NCBI GenBank assembly: GCA_036702865.1
Contig: DATNQD010000017.1
Span: 62,001 to 126,000, forward strand
Length of the DNA: 64,000 nt
Direction of reading: 5' to 3'
Source: Trichocoleus sp.
Lineage (GTDB): Bacteria; Cyanobacteriota; Cyanobacteriia; Elainellales; Elainellaceae
In this document: piece by piece, positions 1,553 to 19,322 of the stretch
How positions within the stretch are numbered: the stretch's first letter is position 1
Layout of the letters: every line of letters begins with the position of its first letter
The notes under the pieces: model-generated
Database searches by the model: none
Told to the model about the DNA's origin: nothing
What the model saw: the letters and a program-made list of their open reading frames with translations, nothing else
Translations under genes and position numbers: made by a program

Positions 1553-2566
1553 TTAAATACCTGCGTTAAAGGCGAAGGCTCTTGCTGTTTTCGGCTTCAC
1601 ATAAACCTGCTGAAGTGCAGTGAGGTTGAGTCGATCGAACTGTTCTCGCGGCAAGTAAGCGTTCATCGATTCCCCATCATGTAATTGCAGTTCAACGCGT
1701 ACCTCCCAGCCCAGGTAAACCACTCGGCTAATCGTTGCAGCGACCGCTTCATCTGTCGGCGATTTTTCAATAATGACATCATGCGGACGGATAAAGACCT
1801 CTGGTTGGTCTGCGGGCTGAGGGTGATGTAAAAAGGCTGTACGGCTGGACAACACGTTGACAGGACCAATAAAGCTCATGACAAAGGGAGTCGCAGGTTT
1901 ATCGTAAATCTCAACGGGTGTGCCTACTTGCTCAACCCGACCCTTGTTCATCACGACCAACTTATCTGCAACTTCCATCGCTTCTTCCTGATCATGGGTG
2001 ACAAAGACAGTCGTCACATGCACCTCTTCATGCAGGCGGCGCAACCAGGAGCGTAGATCTTTGCGAACTTTTGCATCCAGTGCCCCAAACGGCTCATCCA
2101 ACAGTAACACCTGGGGCTGTAATGCCAGTGCTCTTGCAAGTGCAACTCGCTGCCGTTGTCCACCCGAAAGCTGAGAAGGATAGCGATCGCCCAACCCTGC
2201 CATCTGAACGAGTTCCAGCAGTTCAGTGACTCGATTGGCAGTTCTCGCTTTTGGCCATTTGGAAATCTCTAAACCAAAAGCAATATTTTGGCGGATGGTC
2301 ATGTGCTTAAACAGCGCATAATGCTGAAACACAAACCCAATCTGACGGTTCTGCACATCTGTATGAGTGACATCTCGCCCCATCATGATCACCCTGCCAC
2401 TATCAGGGGTTTCTAGCCCCGAAATTAAGCGTAACAGGGTTGATTTTCCTGACCCAGATGGACCCAGAAGCGCAACTAATTCTCCGGATTGAATTTCAAC
2501 ACTGACTTGCTCAACTGCTTGAAAATCGCCAAACCCTTTTGATACGTTCTCAACTAAAATGCCCAT
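1553..2566 (-). CDS. cysA: CysA-type sulfate/thiosulfate ABC transporter ATPase (orphan)
   Basis: 337 residues with all ABC ATPase motifs: Walker [10 protein letters not shown] (~35-43), Q-loop FVFQHYALF, signature [15 protein letters not shown] (~132), Walker [14 protein letters not shown], and H-loop [15 protein letters not shown]. The ~100-residue C-terminal part is the regulatory (TOBE-like) extension of the CysA/PotA subclass, and overall length and sequence match CysA. It would energise sulfate, thiosulfate or a related oxyanion/sulfonate importer at the inner membrane. No CysT/CysW permease or binding protein is adjacent, so it either serves permeases elsewhere or the TauA-like protein at 17 kb. 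Operator site B lies 44 bp upstream of its ATG. Confidence 0.85.
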
Positions 2567-11482: not shown

Positions 11483-12268
11483 TTATCTCCACATCATAAG
11501 CCACGATCCTATTCCAACTAAACTCGCTCCCACTACAGGAACTAGCGATCGTCCATGTTTCCAGCTACGCTCTAATGTCATTACGCCTGTCAGGGCTAAC
11601 ATCCACACTAAATGCCCAGCTCCGACAGAGACCATAACCAGCATTAACGCCCAACAACAGCCCAAGCAATAAAGCCCATGGCGAATGCCAAGTTTCCAGG
11701 CAGCAATTGCCCCCTGTTGATAGTGATGGGTGAGGAAACTGTAAGGATGGCGACAAGCATACAAACATTGCTCTTTCAGCGGGCTGAACTGGAATAGACC
11801 TGCAGCTATCAGTGCAATTGGCAAAATCAGATCAGATTGGTGATGGAATTTGTGTTGCCCCAGCAGTTGTAACCCTAAATCACCCACAAACGCGATTAGC
11901 GCAAAGCCTGTCCAAACTGCTAAGTACGCAGCGAGAAATGCAAGTAGAACAAGATGATGATTCGTTTGACTGCTACTGACTTTAATAAATAACCGAGCAA
12001 ACGGCAGCGTACTCGGCAACATCATTGCAATGGTCATTACTTGCCATGCGGCTAAAAAAATCAGCAGCTTAAGCGCAAAAGATATAGAGAAATATGTTGC
12101 TAATCCGTTCAGGTGAAACAGATGCCATTGCCCAGTGAAAGCAAGGAGCAGCAGTACTCCCCAAGCAGCAGCCACTAAAACCCATGCCCAATTCAGCGGA
12201 TCAGCAAAGAGCGATCGTCCCGACTGCATCCAGCTCGTCGCCATAGAATTTTCAGGCAATTCGTTCAT
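11483..12268 (-). CDS. DUF2182 predicted metal-binding membrane protein
   Basis: 261 residues with about seven membrane helices. Family hallmarks are WQVMTIAMMLPSTLPFARLF, the segment FQFSPLKEQCLYACRHP, and HGLYCLGCCWALML near the C-terminus. The conserved Met, Cys and His residues inside or next to helices suggested metal binding to those who named the family; function is unproven. Its ATG lies 3 bp after the stop of the DUF1326 gene, so the two are translationally linked. This pairing recurs in many bacteria. Confidence 0.85.
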   Translation of the reverse strand: MNELPENSMATSWMQSGRSLFADPLNWAWVLVAAAWGVLLLLAFTGQWHLFHLNGLATYFSISFALKLLIFLAAWQVMTIAMMLPSTLPFARLFIKVSSSQTNHHLVLLAFLAAYLAVWTGFALIAFVGDLGLQLLGQHKFHHQSDLILPIALIAAGLFQFSPLKEQCLYACRHPYSFLTHHYQQGAIAAWKLGIRHGLYCLGCCWALMLVMVSVGAGHLVWMLALTGVMTLERSWKHGRSLVPVVGASLVGIGSWLMMWR

Positions 12269-12271
12269 TGC

Positions 12272-12889
12272 TTATGCCTCAAGGTGAAATAAGCCCTGAA
12301 TGGCATTGTGACCACTGTACTCCCAGGCGAGGTTAAATTCTGGTATGTTCACCTTGTGGACAGGTGCTTTCGCGACATAAGCAGGCGATCCTGGAATCGT
12401 ACTAAAGATACTATCTACAAGTTTAGTTGGGCTACCATCTGGACCCCGGTAGGGTTCCATTTCGCTGATCAAAACATCCCCAATCCGAATCGTTCCCCGT
12501 CCATTTTCGATGTTGTATTCAATGGGTGCCACCCGAACGTCCAGAACTTCGGCAACCAGTTTTGCCACGTCTGCGATCGCACCACCCAACTCACCATTAA
12601 ACACTTGAGTTAACAACTGCTGTTGCTCTAGAGTACCCTTAGCATCCACGTACACGACAGCTTTCCAGCCGCCAGCAAGAACGTTGCCGGGAATATAGAC
12701 AATTTTCAGTAAGGTTAAGCCACTGACATCAACCCCTTTGATGGTTCCTTGCTCGACGTGGTAAGCCACAAAGCTATCGCAGTAACCACCGTCCGGATCA
12801 TCCCCAATCCAGCAGGGGCAAGGTGCTTTGCAAGAGCAGGCTTCTAAAATCTGCCCAGTGAGATCGTAAGTCTTGATTGCAGTTGTCAT
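12272..12889 (-). CDS. DUF1326 domain protein
   Basis: 205 residues with the DUF1326 opening YDLTGQILEACSCKAPCPCW, whose CSCKAPCPC cluster could bind metal or a thiol ligand, followed by IGDDPDGGYC and a mixed alpha/beta domain. No signal peptide. Biochemical function is unknown. It is first in a two-gene operon with the DUF2182 membrane protein, and operator site C lies 36 bp upstream of its ATG. This places the pair in the same regulon as the sulfur genes, which is new functional context for it. Confidence 0.85.
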   Translation of the reverse strand: MTTAIKTYDLTGQILEACSCKAPCPCWIGDDPDGGYCDSFVAYHVEQGTIKGVDVSGLTLLKIVYIPGNVLAGGWKAVVYVDAKGTLEQQQLLTQVFNGELGGAIADVAKLVAEVLDVRVAPIEYNIENGRGTIRIGDVLISEMEPYRGPDGSPTKLVDSIFSTIPGSPAYVAKAPVHKVNIPEFNLAWEYSGHNAIQGLFHLEA

Positions 12890-13075: not shown

Positions 13076-15406
13076 CTAAATATACATTGCAAAATAGTCA
13101 TGAATTTCAGTATTCATTAATAGCGTTAGTTCTGCTTTCGTTTGTTCATCACTTGTTGTAGCAGCCATAGAATTCAGATAATCTTCAGGCATGAAATCAC
13201 CGCAGTATTCATTTGCGGGTACTGCTTGATTCATCTTTTTGGGATAGCTCAAGTTCAGGTTATTCATGATCGTAATAAACTGGCTGCGAGTGCGATCGGC
13301 AAATCGTGGGTTCAACCGCTTTTCTTCGCCAATTGTAGAAACGGTACGCCCGTAATAGTCATGTGCCGGGTACACGAGTGTTTCATCAGGCAAGGCGAAT
13401 AGCTTTTGTGTCACTACGTCGTACAAAGTACCAGCATCACCGCTCTGAAAATCGGTGCGTCCACAGCCTCGAATTAACAGGACATCTCCCGTTAACAAAT
13501 GGGTTTTGTTGACCCAATATGCAATGTGACTGGAAGTGTGCCCCGGTGTCGCAATTGCCTCAATCACCACTGATCCTACAGTTAAAATCTCCTCACCCTC
13601 CAGAGAGCGATCGGCTTTTGTCACAGCCGTATTTTGTGGAACCAAAACCTGGCAGCCCGTTTGCCGCCTTAACTTGCCTGCTCCGGTAATGTGGTCAGCG
13701 TGGATGTGAGTTTCCAGACAATAGCGCAGCGTCAACCCCAGTTCATCTAAGGTTTTTAAATCACGATCGACCTGTTCCAGGACAGTATCGACTAGCGCTG
13801 CATCTCCTGTTTGTCGATCAGCAATCAAGTAGGTATAGCTGCTGGTTTCAGGGTCAAAAAACTGACGGAATAGCAGCGTTGATGGAATAGCTTGATTCGT
13901 GAGGCGTGAAATGGAGCTATCACGTAGCGAATTGTCTATTCTCGTTGCCGAAGGAGCAGGTGGAACAGGACGCACCCGCACTGGAAGCGATCGCAACACG
14001 GTTTCGGCTAATGCTTGCGCTTGCCCTCGCAGTTCAGGCACAGCAATGGATTCCCACAAATCACCTTTGCGAGGCGTTCCAAGAGTGTAGAGCCAGGTCA
14101 AAGCATTGCCCGTCGCATCTAAAACTGCACCATGAGAAGCAGTGTCTAGCCCTAAGCCAAGGCAGTTGGGACGAATTAATCCCTGATCTCGTAAATTAGC
14201 AATGAGGGGATTGAGCGATCGTCGATAATCGACTGATATCCCTGTGCAGTTTACAACCCGCTTGACCTGCAAAACTGTATCAGCTTTTGTTTTGCGCTGG
14301 CTTACGGTGACAGCAATCCCATCAGATGAGGCTTGATACGTTTGAATTCGTCCTGCGGCTACGGTGAGCTGCCCTGAACCAAGCATTTCATCTAGCGTAT
14401 CGGCAACTCGTTGAGCAATTCGATGGCGATGGACATCCCAATAGGGAGTGAGGTGGCGCACAAATCGTTGCTGCTCTGCAATTGGCAGTTGTTGCCAGAG
14501 CTGTTGCGTAATCGGACGCAGGGAATCAATCACCGATCGCCAGTCATAGCCTTGAGCAGTAGCGCTTTTTATCTCAGTACGCACTCGCCGCACTAAAGCC
14601 CGAATCGTTTGAGGGGCAGTTTCTGGCGTCAAAAAAGGTGGATAGAGTTTGGTCGCTTGATGTCGTTGTGGAGAAAGTCCCCGACGCGATATTGCATACA
14701 CCTTACCCTGATGCTGCCGCTCGCGCAGCGACAAGACTGTATCAACCATCGTCAACCCAGTGCCAACTAATAATACAGGGGCAGCCGGATCAAGATCGAG
14801 CAGCGCATCGGCTGACCAGGCATTGCGGAGATAGTCTTGCTCCCCTTCCTTCGAGTTAGGAGGCGCGGCTGGTGAGTTTCCTAGAGCCAGTACTACCTTA
14901 TCTGCCAGGAAAAAACGACCACTGCGGAGAGAAACGATCGCCCCTTTGGCATCCGGTTCTATGGCAACTCCTTCATCGGTCAATCGCTCAAGTTGAACGT
15001 AGCTAGGCGCTGTAGCTTCAGCTTCCTCTAGAACAGATTGAATGTAAAAAGCATAAACCTTGCGTGGAATAAAAGTGCTGGCGTTAACTTCATCCTCAAG
15101 AAATGTTGTCAATTCGTTCTGATTATGGTTCAACCAGCGAAGCAGATGACCTGGATCATGAGGAAATGCACTCATATTGCCTGCTGAAACATTGAGCAAA
15201 TGGCAGGTGCTATCCGTGCTGTAGGCAATTCCTTTGCCAATGTCATGACTCCGCTCAATTAATTTAATTGTGAGTGGCTGAGTTGCGGTCTTCAGAAGAT
15301 GGGTTGCGACGAGAGAACCGCTGAAACCACCACCAATGATGGCGATCGTTGTTTGAGTACGGGGAGTCAGAAAATAAGAGTTCACAGTTGTTTTTGAAAA
15401 GTTCAT
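13076..15406 (-). CDS. Fusion protein: YdhS-like FAD/NAD(P)-binding oxidoreductase + ETHE1-type persulfide dioxygenase
   Basis: 776 residues in one frame. Residues ~20-500 are a flavoprotein of the COG4529/YdhS type: dinucleotide-binding AIIGGGFSGSLVA (~23-35), RSHDIGKGIAYST and a second nucleotide-binding region near VLLVGTGLTMVDTVLSL. Residues ~515-765 are a metallo-beta-lactamase fold with ETHE1 features: THIHADH (His567, His569, Asp571, His572), GHTSSHIAYW, GCGRTDFQSGD and YPAHDYYGRTVSTIGEEK. ETHE1-type enzymes oxidise glutathione persulfide to sulfite in the cytosol. The flavin half could supply the persulfide by oxidising a sulfide or thiol substrate, by analogy with SQR; that is inference. 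Operator site D lies 57 bp upstream. The fusion boundary shows no frameshift. Confidence 0.85.
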   Translation of the reverse strand: MNFSKTTVNSYFLTPRTQTTIAIIGGGFSGSLVATHLLKTATQPLTIKLIERSHDIGKGIAYSTDSTCHLLNVSAGNMSAFPHDPGHLLRWLNHNQNELTTFLEDEVNASTFIPRKVYAFYIQSVLEEAEATAPSYVQLERLTDEGVAIEPDAKGAIVSLRSGRFFLADKVVLALGNSPAAPPNSKEGEQDYLRNAWSADALLDLDPAAPVLLVGTGLTMVDTVLSLRERQHQGKVYAISRRGLSPQRHQATKLYPPFLTPETAPQTIRALVRRVRTEIKSATAQGYDWRSVIDSLRPITQQLWQQLPIAEQQRFVRHLTPYWDVHRHRIAQRVADTLDEMLGSGQLTVAAGRIQTYQASSDGIAVTVSQRKTKADTVLQVKRVVNCTGISVDYRRSLNPLIANLRDQGLIRPNCLGLGLDTASHGAVLDATGNALTWLYTLGTPRKGDLWESIAVPELRGQAQALAETVLRSLPVRVRPVPPAPSATRIDNSLRDSSISRLTNQAIPSTLLFRQFFDPETSSYTYLIADRQTGDAALVDTVLEQVDRDLKTLDELGLTLRYCLETHIHADHITGAGKLRRQTGCQVLVPQNTAVTKADRSLEGEEILTVGSVVIEAIATPGHTSSHIAYWVNKTHLLTGDVLLIRGCGRTDFQSGDAGTLYDVVTQKLFALPDETLVYPAHDYYGRTVSTIGEEKRLNPRFADRTRSQFITIMNNLNLSYPKKMNQAVPANEYCGDFMPEDYLNSMAATTSDEQTKAELTLLMNTEIHDYFAMYI

Positions 15407-15863: not shown

Positions 15864-16053
15864 TTTAATTGCCAGAGCTGATGAAGTGATGTTTCTTTTA
15901 ACCTTGGCTTGCCAATCCCTTCCTGTTCCTCAACACTATACTTTCGCTCACGCAACGATCGAACTCTCATGAGCTGCTTCATTGTTTGTGCTTTTGCGAA
16001 CTCAAGAGCGGCAGCACATTTGCTTTATACGCTTGAAGAAAAAAGGAATCACG

Positions 16054-16965
16054 ATGAGTTTTACGACCTTTGACCTCACCCCGCTATCAGGACGTATTGG
16101 TGCAGAAATTCTTGACGTTGATCTCAACGCTGACCTCAGCGATACCTTGATCCAGGAAATTCGTCAGGCATTGGTACAATACAAGGTCATTTTCTTTCGG
16201 CAGCAGTCGCTTGATGCAGCAGGGCAGATTGCTTTTGCTCGTCGCTTTGGCGAAATTACAACGGCTCATCCAACGCTGCCCCCGCTGACCGAACATGCCG
16301 AAGTATTAGACCTTGACTATGGACGGACTGCAACCCGTTCCAATGAGTGGCATACTGACGTAACATTTGTCGATCGTCCACCGCTCGGCTCCATTCTGCG
16401 GGCGATCGAAATTCCCCCGGTTGGTGGTGATACAGTTTGGGCAAATACGGTGACTGCCTATCAAGATTTACCCGAACATCTTCGCAATCTTGCGGATCAA
16501 CTTTGGGCAGTACATAGCAATGTTTATGACTATGCAGAAGCTGCCATCACTCCATCTGAAGCACTGAAGGCTTATCAGAAAGTCTTTACCTCAACGCTGT
16601 ACGAGACGCTGCATCCTGTGGTACGAGTGCATCCAGAATCCGGTGAGCGAGGGTTATTTATTGGCGGATTTGTGCAGCAGATCCAGGGGCTATCTGTTAC
16701 AGAGTCAAAGGACTTGGTTCGGCTGTTGCAGGCATATGTGACCCGCCTGGAAAACACAGTGCGCTGGAAGTGGCAGGTTGGAGATGTCGCATTTTGGGAC
16801 AACCGATCGACCCAGCATTATGCGATTTATGACTATGAGGGGCAACCTCGACGGGTACAGCGAGTCACGATCGTGGGCGATCGACCGCTCAGCATTGACG
16901 GCAGATCCAGCCACGCAATCAAAGGCGATTCTTCAAGCTATGTGCGCCAACCTGTTTTGGCTTAA
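16054..16965 (+). CDS. tauD: TauD-family Fe(II)/2-oxoglutarate-dependent sulfonate/sulfate-ester dioxygenase
   Basis: 303 residues from the ATG at 16054, which has AAGGA seven bases upstream; a longer frame begins at 15982. The facial triad is visible: His100 and Asp102 in NEWHTDVTF, and His255 in STQHYAIYDY. The Arg-rich segment QPRRVQRVTI binds 2-oxoglutarate in the family. TauD hydroxylates taurine, releasing sulfite and aminoacetaldehyde; AtsK relatives use alkyl sulfates, so the substrate could be either. It heads a run of four same-strand genes with 80-95 bp gaps and is downstream of operator site E. Sulfite made here would suit the TauE exporter at the left edge. Confidence 0.85.
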   Translation: MSFTTFDLTPLSGRIGAEILDVDLNADLSDTLIQEIRQALVQYKVIFFRQQSLDAAGQIAFARRFGEITTAHPTLPPLTEHAEVLDLDYGRTATRSNEWHTDVTFVDRPPLGSILRAIEIPPVGGDTVWANTVTAYQDLPEHLRNLADQLWAVHSNVYDYAEAAITPSEALKAYQKVFTSTLYETLHPVVRVHPESGERGLFIGGFVQQIQGLSVTESKDLVRLLQAYVTRLENTVRWKWQVGDVAFWDNRSTQHYAIYDYEGQPRRVQRVTIVGDRPLSIDGRSSHAIKGDSSSYVRQPVLA

Positions 16966-17053: not shown

Positions 17054-18124
17054 ATGCCACTTCGTCGCAGAAATGTTCTATTTGGTCTGTTTGGTCTGAG
17101 TTTGCCTTTCATTAGCTCTAGCTGCACTCAAAATTCGCCCCAAGCGAGTAATTCTGGTTCAACAGCGAATTCAACTGTAAGTCCGTCTTCTGAAGCAAAA
17201 AACTCAGAGCCAGCTCCCGCTAAAATTCGGGTTGGCTATCAGGTGTATGCTGGAGCTGAAATCCTGGCAAAGGGATTAGGTCTTGCCAAAGAGACTTTTG
17301 CTAATACAGACGTTGAATATTTGCGGTTCGATTCAGGACGAGATGTCAATACTGCCTTTGCTGCAAATAGCATTGACTTTGGAGTGCTTGGTTCCGCTGC
17401 CGCCGCAGTTGGGCTTTCTCGCAATATTCCCTACGATGTCTTCTATGTTTACGAACTGACCAACACAGCAGAAGCACTTGTCGTCAAAGATAACATTAAG
17501 ACGATCGCAGACATTAAAGGAAAGAAGATAGCCACAACGTTTAGTTCAACAAGCCATTATTCTTTACTATCGCTGTTGGAATTAGAAAAAATAAACCAAA
17601 GTGAAGTAACGATATTAGATATGTTGCCGCAAGATAGCTTAGCAGCATGGCAGCGCGGCAATATTGACGGAGCTTACACTTGGGAACCCGTTTTAGCAAC
17701 GCTTGAGCAAGGAGGAGGAAAAGTATTAGTCACCTCTGGGGAATTGGCGAAGCGGGGACATGCCACATTAAACGTTGCCGTCGTTTCTCAAAGCTTTGCT
17801 CGGCAATATCCTAACGTCGTAAAACAATATGTTGCCATGCTGGATAAGGCTGTTAACGTGTATCGTCAAGATCCACAAGCAGCCGCGAAAGCACTCTCAG
17901 CAGAATTGGGAGTTCCACCTGAAGAAGCACTGCGACAGGCAGGAAGCCTAAGTTGGTTTGATGCTTCAGAGCAAGTGGACAACCAAAATTTAGGAACAGC
18001 AGACAAACCGGGTGATATTGCCAAAACACTGCAACAAACGGCAGATTTTATGGTGACGCAAAAGGCAATTCCTTCAGCACCTAATCAGGACACGGTGCAA
18101 AAACACATTTATCATGCTCTCTAG
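17054..18124 (+). CDS. TauA/SsuA-like ABC substrate-binding lipoprotein
   Basis: 356 residues. The N-terminus is basic (PLRRRN), then hydrophobic (VLFGLFGLSLPFISSS) ending in Cys24, a plausible but not ideal lipobox. A Ser/Asn/Pro-rich linker leads to a periplasmic binding domain of the NMT1/TauA type: KIRVGYQVYAGAEILAKGLG, VEYLRFDSGRDVNTAFAANS, DFGVLGSAAAAVGL and GAYTWEPVLATL. It would capture taurine or an alkanesulfonate for an importer. No TauB/TauC partners lie here; the CysA-like ATPase at 1553-2566 or genes elsewhere may complete it. Follows tauD by 88 bp. Confidence 0.85.
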   Translation: MPLRRRNVLFGLFGLSLPFISSSCTQNSPQASNSGSTANSTVSPSSEAKNSEPAPAKIRVGYQVYAGAEILAKGLGLAKETFANTDVEYLRFDSGRDVNTAFAANSIDFGVLGSAAAAVGLSRNIPYDVFYVYELTNTAEALVVKDNIKTIADIKGKKIATTFSSTSHYSLLSLLELEKINQSEVTILDMLPQDSLAAWQRGNIDGAYTWEPVLATLEQGGGKVLVTSGELAKRGHATLNVAVVSQSFARQYPNVVKQYVAMLDKAVNVYRQDPQAAAKALSAELGVPPEEALRQAGSLSWFDASEQVDNQNLGTADKPGDIAKTLQQTADFMVTQKAIPSAPNQDTVQKHIYHAL

Positions 18125-18218: not shown

Positions 18219-18779
18219 ATGAGCCAGCTTTTAGGGGAAGTTCTTTCCGCAAATCACAGTTATGTCTCAAACTTCGGTGAGAAGGGGCAACTCCCACTGC
18301 CGCCTGCTCGACGATTTGCAATTCTTACCTGTATGGATGCTCGACTTGATCCGGCTCAGTTTGCAGGACTAACAGAAGGAGATGCTCATGTCATTCGTAA
18401 TGCAGGAGGTCGTGTCAGTGAGGATGTAATTCGATCGCTCGTCATTTCCTACAAACTATTAGGAACTCGTGAATGGTTTGTCATTCATCATACGGATTGT
18501 GGCATGGAAACCTTTACTGATCAAATCATCCGAAATCTCCTGTCTAGCAGCCTGGAGACGGCTGTGTTAGGTGAGTCAGGCTGGCAGGATCAAGGAACAA
18601 CTCCTGGTTCAACGGCAGGTGAGTCTATTGATTGGTTGACGATCGGTGATCAGAAGCAAAGCATTATTAATGACGTTCAGCAAATTCGCAATCATCCGCT
18701 TGTACCTCAAGAAATCCCCATTTATGGTTATCTTTATGATGTTAAAACCGGAAAGCTAATTGAAGTATTCAAGGCATGA
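18219..18779 (+). CDS. Beta-carbonic anhydrase family enzyme (possible COS/CS2 hydrolase)
   Basis: 186 residues with the beta-class zinc site: Cys38-X-Asp40-X-Arg42 in LTCMDARLD, then His91 and Cys94 in HHTDCGM. The Asp-Arg pair of the active site is intact. Length and the compact C-terminus resemble the small class-D group, which includes mycobacterial carbonic anhydrases and the carbonyl sulfide hydrolase of Thiobacillus. Carbonic anhydrase is the default reading. Its place behind tauD and tauA under operator E makes hydrolysis of COS or CS2 worth testing; this is inference. AAGGA precedes the ATG by seven bases. Confidence 0.8.
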
Positions 18780-18869: not shown

Positions 18870-19322
18870 ATGACAGACTCCATTAAACCGATTAGTGACA
18901 GTTTTAGTGCTGCTGGACAAGTTTCAGCAGATGATTTACAACAGGCTGCCGCTCAAGGATTCAAATCAGTTTTGAACTTACGATCGCCCGATGAACCTGG
19001 TTTCTCTGTTAATGAACAGCACCAAGCCGAAGCCGCAGGTCTGGACTATACAAATGTGCCGCTGAACCCTTCTCAGGCAGAGGAAGACAAAATTGCGACT
19101 GCCTTAGCAGCATTAGAAGCATTGCCGCAGCCTACACTCATTCATTGTGCCGCAGGGGCAAGAGCCGGAGCGATCGCCCTAATTGCAACCGCAACTCAAG
19201 CAAAACTTACCGCAGAAGAAGTGATCATCAAGGCACAGCAGGCAGGTCTGAATCCAGAACAACCCCACCTTCACCAATTCGTTGAAAGTTTAAGGAGCGA
19301 ATCCACACCTGATCATGTCTGA
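18870..19322 (+). CDS. DUF442 (Blh-type) phosphatase/sulfurtransferase-like protein
   Basis: 150 residues. The fold is that of the dual-specificity-phosphatase-like DUF442 domain: FKSVLNLRSPDEPGF, YTNVPLNPSQ and the active-site loop LIHCAAGARAGA. The loop is Cys-X4-Arg, shorter by one than classical Cys-X5-Arg phosphatases, as expected for DUF442. In Xylella and Agrobacterium this domain is fused in front of an ETHE1-type dioxygenase (Blh) under BigR control. Here it is a free protein while the dioxygenase is fused to a flavoprotein. It is last in the tauD run. A sulfurtransferase-like role is inference. Confidence 0.8.
   Translation: MTDSIKPISDSFSAAGQVSADDLQQAAAQGFKSVLNLRSPDEPGFSVNEQHQAEAAGLDYTNVPLNPSQAEEDKIATALAALEALPQPTLIHCAAGARAGAIALIATATQAKLTAEEVIIKAQQAGLNPEQPHLHQFVESLRSESTPDHV

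Follow-up and report, generated by a model that had tools for sequence, protein, structure and literature searches.

The analyzed window is a stretch of 64,000 nucleotides from Trichocoleus sp. (GenBank assembly GCA_036702865.1, contig DATNQD010000017.1, positions 62,001 to 126,000 of the forward strand). Its minus strand carries an open reading frame (ORF) at positions 13076-15406 that joins an N-terminal flavin-binding half to a C-terminal ETHE1-type persulfide dioxygenase (PDO) half (Table 1). The frame is uninterrupted over 776 codons, and the opposite (+) translation holds 36 stops. The open frame confirmed the original prediction, made from the sequence alone and with the strand unstated, of a flavoprotein and an ETHE1-type dioxygenase in one 776-residue frame. 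The Pfam domains NAD_binding_9 (residues 22-177, E value 3.1e-39) and Lactamase_B (residues 521-682, E value 3.7e-18) were identified, and NF040641 covered the PDO part alone. Domain searches found neither a rhodanese nor a DUF442 domain in the window protein, and the partner thus differs, as predicted, from these two kinds. The label "YdhS-like" given to the flavin half held only loosely: PRK09897, titled "FAD-NAD(P)-binding protein" (FAD, flavin adenine dinucleotide) and presumably YdhS, matched 33 of 53 family members, and the window protein scored 30.7 bits, where the cut-off is 783.

Fold and predicted active sites of the two halves

Residues 511-740 matched the solved ETHE1-type PDO 4ysb with an E value of 8.6e-74 (phmmer against the PDB). 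The model of the whole protein (predicted local distance difference test score, pLDDT, 76; predicted template modeling score, pTM, 0.59) superposed on PRF (5ve5) with a Z score of 35.7 and 1.3 Å over 229 residues and on human ETHE1 with a Z score of 34.6 over 230 residues. In alignment A2, which holds 33 of the 54 fused proteins, the iron ligands H567, H623, and D641 (H57, H113, and D130 of the A. caldus PDO, AcPDO) were present in 33/33, as were R650, D652, and H682 (AcPDO R139, D141, and H171). These correspond to the three iron ligands and to residues needed for activity as described for the A. caldus enzyme (PMC6060420), so that the dioxygenase, predicted to have a complete metal site, has all its iron ligands and essential second-shell residues in place. 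The same source describes a motif, T-H-hydrophobic-H-A-D-H-hydrophobic-T/S, whose third His is found in types I and II and is F or Y in type III. The window protein has the type I/II form (THIHADHIT, residues 566-574), and the third His was kept in 29 of the 33 fused proteins; the remaining four, all acidobacterial, carry Phe, the mark of type III. Type I structures were closer (Z scores of 34-36, 44-52% identity) than the larger type II enzymes, represented by P. putida 4ysk (Z score of 30.9, 29% identity), and the C-terminal half is therefore, by sequence and fold, a type I PDO with predicted catalytic activity. It shares its fold, Fe ligands, THxHADHxT motif, and second-shell Arg/Asp/His with the type I PDOs of human (ETHE1, 4chl), M. 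xanthus (4ysb), and B. phytofirmans (PRF, 5ve3-5). In contrast to them, the window protein adds an N-terminal flavin oxygenase-like half, and one clade of fusions adds a tail ending in YFAMYI.

The best fold match of the flavin-half model (53 sequences; pLDDT 88.2, pTM 0.86) was the L-aspartate N-hydroxylase FzmM (8cp2/8cp5), with a Z score of 30.5 over 442 residues. This was 3 Z units over the next match, the ornithine hydroxylase PvdA (27.2 over 387 residues). SsDesB and cadaverine, ornithine, and putrescine hydroxylases followed at 26.4-25.9 with about 385 residues aligned; flavin-containing monooxygenases were level with them by Z, and thioredoxin reductases scored 25.4 and below. A sequence profile search also recovered FzmM (E value 1.5e-13). 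Profiles were required, since a phmmer search of the PDB with a single flavin homolog (L106) gave weak partial matches only. The fold comprises two dinucleotide domains and a helical insert (residues ~268-344), as in N-hydroxylases. G25, G27, and G30 form a GxGxxG motif for FAD, and G215-x-G217 together with S240-R-R-G forms a nicotinamide adenine dinucleotide phosphate (NADP)-side motif, of which G215, G217, S240, R241, and G243 were present in 33/33. N72, equivalent to the catalytic Asn62 of FzmM, was present in 53/53 sequences of alignment A3, which holds 53 of 78 eligible flavin halves. In FzmM, this Asn is described as sitting over flavin C4a and as critical in class B monooxygenases (PMC10404684). 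The flavin half thus resembles FzmM and the ornithine, cadaverine, and putrescine N-hydroxylases in that it superposes as a whole on FzmM and has the catalytic Asn and both dinucleotide motifs. As modeled, it has an N-hydroxylase-type (class B) flavin monooxygenase fold, and the motifs suggest that it uses NADPH and O2.

Recurrence and origins of the fusion

A search for the same domain order in other genomes, as the original prediction had proposed, found it in dozens of assemblies. In the search of relatives, it was present in one frame in 4/98 genomes, the source genome counted, and these same four make up 4/36 of the genomes of the source's order. When named genomes were scanned with the flavin half and the best 80 of at least 555 confirmed matches were kept, 53 of these loci had a single-ORF flavin-PDO fusion (49 cyanobacterial and four acidobacterial); the 80 loci were picked by flavin-half similarity, and 53/80 is not a prevalence. 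Counts refer to loci, not genomes, as some genomes gave two (e.g., Nostoc sp. LPT and NMS7). At L121 and L128 no flavin ORF was called, and the fusion at L118 is cut by a contig end. Cyanobacterial carriers include Nostoc, Cylindrospermum, Sphaerospermopsis, Pseudanabaena, Microcoleus, Chroococcus, Leptolyngbya, Elainella, Calothrix, and Fischerella, among others. Sampling of 386 cyanobacterial genomes (completeness at least 90%) found a near-full-length fusion in 11, the source genome counted. A fusion suspected of being broken, in G297, proved on reading to be an intact ORF of 716 residues, the TAA inside the aligned stretch being its natural end.

The fusion is therefore genuine, neither chance nor an assembly join. 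A frameshift, assembly join, or pseudogene, the first two of which the original prediction had allowed for, is refuted by the intact frame in dozens of diverged assemblies; nothing speaks for such an artifact at the window, and the sole point on that side is that one genome (G005) retains a mere fragment of the PDO end.

The four acidobacterial fusions (L114, L115, L116, and L123; 948-969 residues) all join the flavin half to a type III PDO. L114 has NAD_binding_9, Lactamase_B, and rhodanese domains in Pfam. Unfused acidobacterial genes share 65-70% identity with its PDO-rhodanese part, and the joining was therefore probably local. The acidobacterial form is rarer than the cyanobacterial one: of 297 sampled genomes, the query's own was the only one to give a near-full-length match. 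In having a PDO with the H-to-F change and a rhodanese, these fusions, built on the same flavin family, resemble type III PDO-rhodanese proteins, which we take to be of the S. aureus CstB kind; the window protein lacks a rhodanese, and its PDO residues are those of type I.

Trees were built for both halves by a quick method and are unrooted. The flavin-half tree and the neighbor counts exclude five loci (L034, L035, L038, L039, and L043) that come from the same genomes as L070, L074, L113, L122, and L107, respectively. The flavin-half tree (87 rows) has two supported cyanobacterial fusion clades, of 16 rows (all fused) and 38 rows (35 fused), and the acidobacterial fusions stand apart in a clade of nine. 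The PDO-half (ETHE1) tree, which excludes type III rows as well as 13 near-copies and includes 19 of 20 lone loci, sets the two cyanobacterial clades apart, with few firm branches. At least two independent origins of the fusion, with different PDO types (type I and type III), are well supported.

Flavin and PDO genes were also found as adjacent separate genes at five of the 80 loci. Three pairs are of type I (L089, L096, and L105), the PDO gene overlapping or lying 157 bp downstream in Scytonema and Tolypothrix and 159 bp downstream in Scytonematopsis. Two are of type III (L111 and L117), in two Sulfotelmatobacter genomes, with the PDO-rhodanese gene 11 and 14 bp downstream. A functional link between the flavin family and PDO is strongly supported by the separate origins of the fusion together with these gene pairs. 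A joint role of the two halves in sulfur metabolism is very likely, given that the pairing is found in many cyanobacteria and evolved independently in other bacteria.

The YFAMYI end, which follows a variable stretch, was present in 35/35 fused members of the window's clade and in 0/16 of the other cyanobacterial fusion clade (one of the 16 is cut by a contig end). The tail has low pLDDT in the whole-protein model, and one can only speculate that it serves as a lid or docking peptide. The encoded tail-end pattern occurred in 5/60 genomes, four times at fusions and once at the G005 fragment. This lone fragment (G005:C47:5655-5900, L205) corresponds to fusion residues 695-776, including the YFAMYI end, and appears to be what is left of a fusion gene that was lost.

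Gene neighborhoods of fused and unfused flavin genes

Table 1. Features of the fusion ORF and of nearby genes in the window
Feature	Positions	Strand	Remarks
Fusion ORF, 776 residues	13076..15406	-	stop codon 13076-13078
Flavin half, residues 17-478	13973..15358	-	boundaries from structure-aligned range 16-478
Linker, residues 479-508	13883..13972	-	variable, low pLDDT
Type I ETHE1/PDO half, residues 509-740	13187..13882	-	PDB match and catalytic residues
C-terminal tail, residues 741-776	13079..13186	-	last letters YFAMYI
DUF1326 protein adjoining PpoB2-family protein	11483..12889	-	directly downstream of fusion
TauD-family dioxygenase	15982..16965	+	divergent neighbor; likely ATG inside, near 16054
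TauA/SsuA-family sulfonate-binding protein	17054..18124	+	
Beta-carbonic-anhydrase-family protein	18219..18779	+	its cluster also in six other neighbor-set loci
Stand-alone DUF442 (BLH_phosphatase, TIGR01244) sulfur-transferase-family protein	18870..19322	+	
Sulfate ATP-binding cassette (ABC) transporter ATP-binding protein, CysA type	1553..2566	-	10.5 kb from fusion

Some fusion genes lie within or beside runs of organosulfur genes. In Nostoc sp. UHCC 0302, five same-strand genes encode a sulfonate-binding protein, SsuD, SsuC, an ABC ATPase, and, last, the fusion, which is 7 bp from the ATPase gene. At L073 the fusion lies 52 bp after an ssuE-like gene, and at L118 it shares 4 bp with an sfnB/dszC-type gene. 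In Nostoc edaphicum, a plasmid-borne fusion lies between two genes for sulfonate-binding proteins. In all, fusions were seen on plasmids of two Nostoc strains (L201 and L202), both near sulfonate-transport genes, and of Cylindrospermum (L059). A plasmid-borne fusion may serve as a mobile accessory sulfur cassette. A gene for a fumarate-reductase-like flavoprotein was near 7/51 fusions (e.g., L051:2495-4192), accompanied by one for a small ferredoxin at L061 and on the L202 plasmid.

Organosulfur genes (TauA/SsuA, SsuD-like, SfnB/DszC, and TauD) were found within 8 kb at 12/51 fused and 6/32 unfused loci and at neither of two sets of control stretches from other cyanobacterial genomes (0/20 random and 0/20 lone ETHE1). 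Contig ends shorten some of the fused flanks (mean of 13.8 of 16 kb). The seeds for neighbor genes were drawn from the same loci, and the counts were repeated with the seed-source loci removed, giving 8/43 fused (p = 0.004) and 3/27 unfused loci (p = 0.06), where related loci are not independent and the p-values are a guide only. When sulfate transporters and DUF442 were added to the gene set, 23/51 fused, 12/32 unfused, 0/20 random, and 4/20 lone-ETHE1 loci were positive, and 16/43 fused and 9/27 unfused loci remained after removal of the seed sources. Each of the four fusions in the window's family (the window, L033, L034, and L035) has a DUF442 gene within 9 kb.

Unfused flavin genes had other sulfur-related neighbors. 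A cysteine dioxygenase gene was directly beside the flavin gene at 5/32 unfused loci (Pfam-checked in three), with spacings of 13 bp (L091), an overlap (L104), 17 bp (L107), 42 bp (L037), and 52 bp in divergent orientation (L125); within 8 kb, one was found at 0/51 fused loci and 0/40 control stretches. A gene for a SrpI type 2A encapsulin, together with one of cysteine-desulfurase type, was found within 8 kb of the flavin gene at L099, L100, L104, L106, L111, L116, L117, L119, L123, and L127, with counts of 7/32 unfused loci, 1/51 fused loci, 2/4 acidobacterial fusions, and 0/40 controls. The flavin family may be part of the encapsulin sulfur system. Rhodaneses and serine acetyltransferases are given as the most enriched accessories of family 2A encapsulins (PMC8346489), and the main text of another study of this family, whose neighbor tables are in its supplements, does not contain "rhodanese," "dioxygenase," or "FAD" (PMC8049743). 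In Acidisoma, an unfused plasmid copy lies near cysN/cysD and an Rrf2 gene. A gene annotated as pcaB follows two Streptomyces homologs; it was unnoticed beside the fusion, where no search was aimed at it. The informative gene settings concern cysteine, persulfide, or sulfonate sulfur. Known oxygenases in such settings yield sulfite or sulfinate.

Proposed function and alternatives

We propose, and give about an even chance, that the fusion is a bifunctional sulfur-acquisition enzyme in which two oxygenases feed sulfite into sulfur assimilation. The N-terminal half would act as an NADPH/FAD/O2 monooxygenase of class B fold and oxygenate a small sulfur or amino compound, the product of which would reach the PDO half as a persulfide, directly or via glutathione (GSH). 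The C-terminal Fe(II) type I PDO would convert glutathione persulfide (GSSH) to sulfite, which the cell would reduce to sulfide and incorporate into cysteine. Fusion would couple the steps, sulfur being first freed or made reactive and then finished as sulfite. Channeling of a persulfide between the halves is plausible and unproven.

A more specific version of this proposal is tentative and, on balance, doubtful. The protein would represent a new class of desulfurizing enzyme with two oxygenases in one polypeptide, its flavin monooxygenase attacking an organosulfur compound and passing on a persulfide from which the fused PDO releases sulfite. In one clade the YFAMYI tail would close or dock onto the partner half, and flavin family members with cysteine dioxygenase or with SrpI encapsulin and cysteine desulfurase would represent unrecognized bacterial sulfur scavenging. 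That the organosulfur source is brought in by Ssu/Tau-type import or derived from cysteine, and that the substrate is new to the N-hydroxylase-fold family, is taken together equally doubtful.

Several observations weigh against the proposed sulfur-acquisition role. The relative placement of the two halves was modeled without confidence, as the pTM of the whole protein indicates, and the disulfide reductase YpdA (Z score of 25.9 over 317 residues) is level by Z with most N-hydroxylases. None of the five FzmM residues that contact aspartate is kept (0/5): Arg13, Arg276, Asn413, Arg416, and Arg577 correspond to S29, a gap, P321, a gap, and E458 of the window protein. In the family (n = 53), the Arg13 column holds Ser 48 times, Thr four times, and one gap, and the Arg577 column Glu in 53/53; Arg276 falls in a gap in 52/53 and Arg416 in 53/53, and Asn is not among the five commonest letters of the Asn413 column, although the helical part aligns poorly with FzmM and its columns are less sure. 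Among the residues by which FzmM contacts sulfate, Arg409 is retained in 51/53, His replaces Arg266 in 52/53, and the Arg412 position has Arg or Lys in 37/53, with Thr in the window protein. The source genome has an unfused flavin paralog (L042:9548-10987, G000:C60; 47% identical) beside SsuA-, SsuD-, SsuE-, SsuC-, SsuB-, and SfnB/DszC-like genes, so that fusion is not required. Three of four unfused plasmid copies (Azospirillum, Methylomagnum, and Gluconobacter) are without an evident sulfur gene, and at 28/51 fused loci, many from Nostoc included, all seven gene kinds looked for are absent within 8 kb. DUF442 was no commoner near fusions (3/51 within 8 kb) than near lone ETHE1 genes (3/20) and was rejected as a fusion marker.

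With its aspartate-site residues replaced or in gaps, the flavin half was rejected as an aspartate N-hydroxylase, although it may act in a similar way, and its substrate differs from that of FzmM. Cysteine sulfinate, an aspartate isostere, had been considered because of the likeness to FzmM and the neighboring cysteine dioxygenase genes; this candidate was weakened by the missing aspartate contacts and by the lack of a cysteine dioxygenase gene within 8 kb of 51 cyanobacterial-type fusions.

The proposal is weakest at the flavin step and the channel, and a reductase and mere co-expression are live rivals. A YpdA/Bdr- or thioredoxin-reductase-like flavin half would use NADPH to reduce disulfides or polysulfides and so regenerate GSH or supply the PDO with GSSH. 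A supplier of GSH or GSSH beside a PDO is chemically sensible, and Bdr/YpdA and thioredoxin reductases superpose with Z scores of 23-26 over about 300-317 residues, YpdA being the best. However, the aligned stretch is about 70 to 130 residues shorter for these folds than for N-hydroxylases and FzmM, and C387 is the single conserved cysteine (52/53). The family has no conserved CxxC, which we take to be typical of thioredoxin reductase, and the position of YpdA Cys14, presumably its key cysteine, is Ser in 48, Thr in four, and a gap in one of 53 sequences. By this cysteine test, with no second conserved Cys, thioredoxin reductase and YpdA were rejected as models, and a reductase role appears unlikely. 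The original prediction had the flavin half make a persulfide and pass it to the dioxygenase, as would a sulfide:quinone oxidoreductase (SQR)-like enzyme oxidizing sulfide. SQR has two or three redox-active cysteines. These have no counterpart in a family with C387 alone, which speaks against dithiol chemistry, and SQR failed the same cysteine test; the nearest folds are N-hydroxylase-type monooxygenases, and the flavin half carries the NADP-side motif. No SQR was among the 50 fold matches listed, an absence that carries no weight against it. This part of the prediction was not borne out, and an SQR-like flavin half is highly improbable, even though SQR, rhodanese, and PDO are described as partners in sulfide oxidation (PMC13047784).

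The halves might instead be joined for co-expression only, each acting alone in a sulfur-starvation response with no shared intermediate. This would fit a linker that is variable in length and modeled with low confidence, the unfused flavin genes near similar genes, and two loci (L063 and L077) that lie inside the fused clade without a PDO half. The two or more origins of the fusion with two PDO types and the invariant tail after the PDO half in one clade argue against it, and we consider co-expression alone rather unlikely.

To our knowledge, known PDO fusions pair the dioxygenase with a sulfur transferase, and we know of no ssu operon with this flavin-PDO component, for which no specific search was made. 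Some of the fusions are located within or next to ssu/sfn/tau organosulfur clusters. Searches of the open-access literature, covering titles and the starts of abstracts, found no description of such a fusion. Rhodanese-PDO fusions have been described (PMC13047784), and Blh is a DUF442-ETHE1 protein (PMC5823870). Blh, from the bigR operon, shares the ETHE1 half with the window protein, but in the window DUF442 is unfused, encoded by a separate gene, and the flavin half takes the N-terminal place.

Unlike the known fusions with sulfur transferases, the protein joins two apparently oxygen-using enzymes. It is found in organisms where sulfonate use can matter; a Nostoc punctiforme alkanesulfonate monooxygenase mutant is reported as unable to colonize feathermoss (PMC7784912). 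Repeated independent joining places an uncharacterized NAD_binding_9 flavin family next to persulfide oxidation and turns the annotation "FAD/NAD(P)-binding protein" into a testable enzyme with a route to its substrate.

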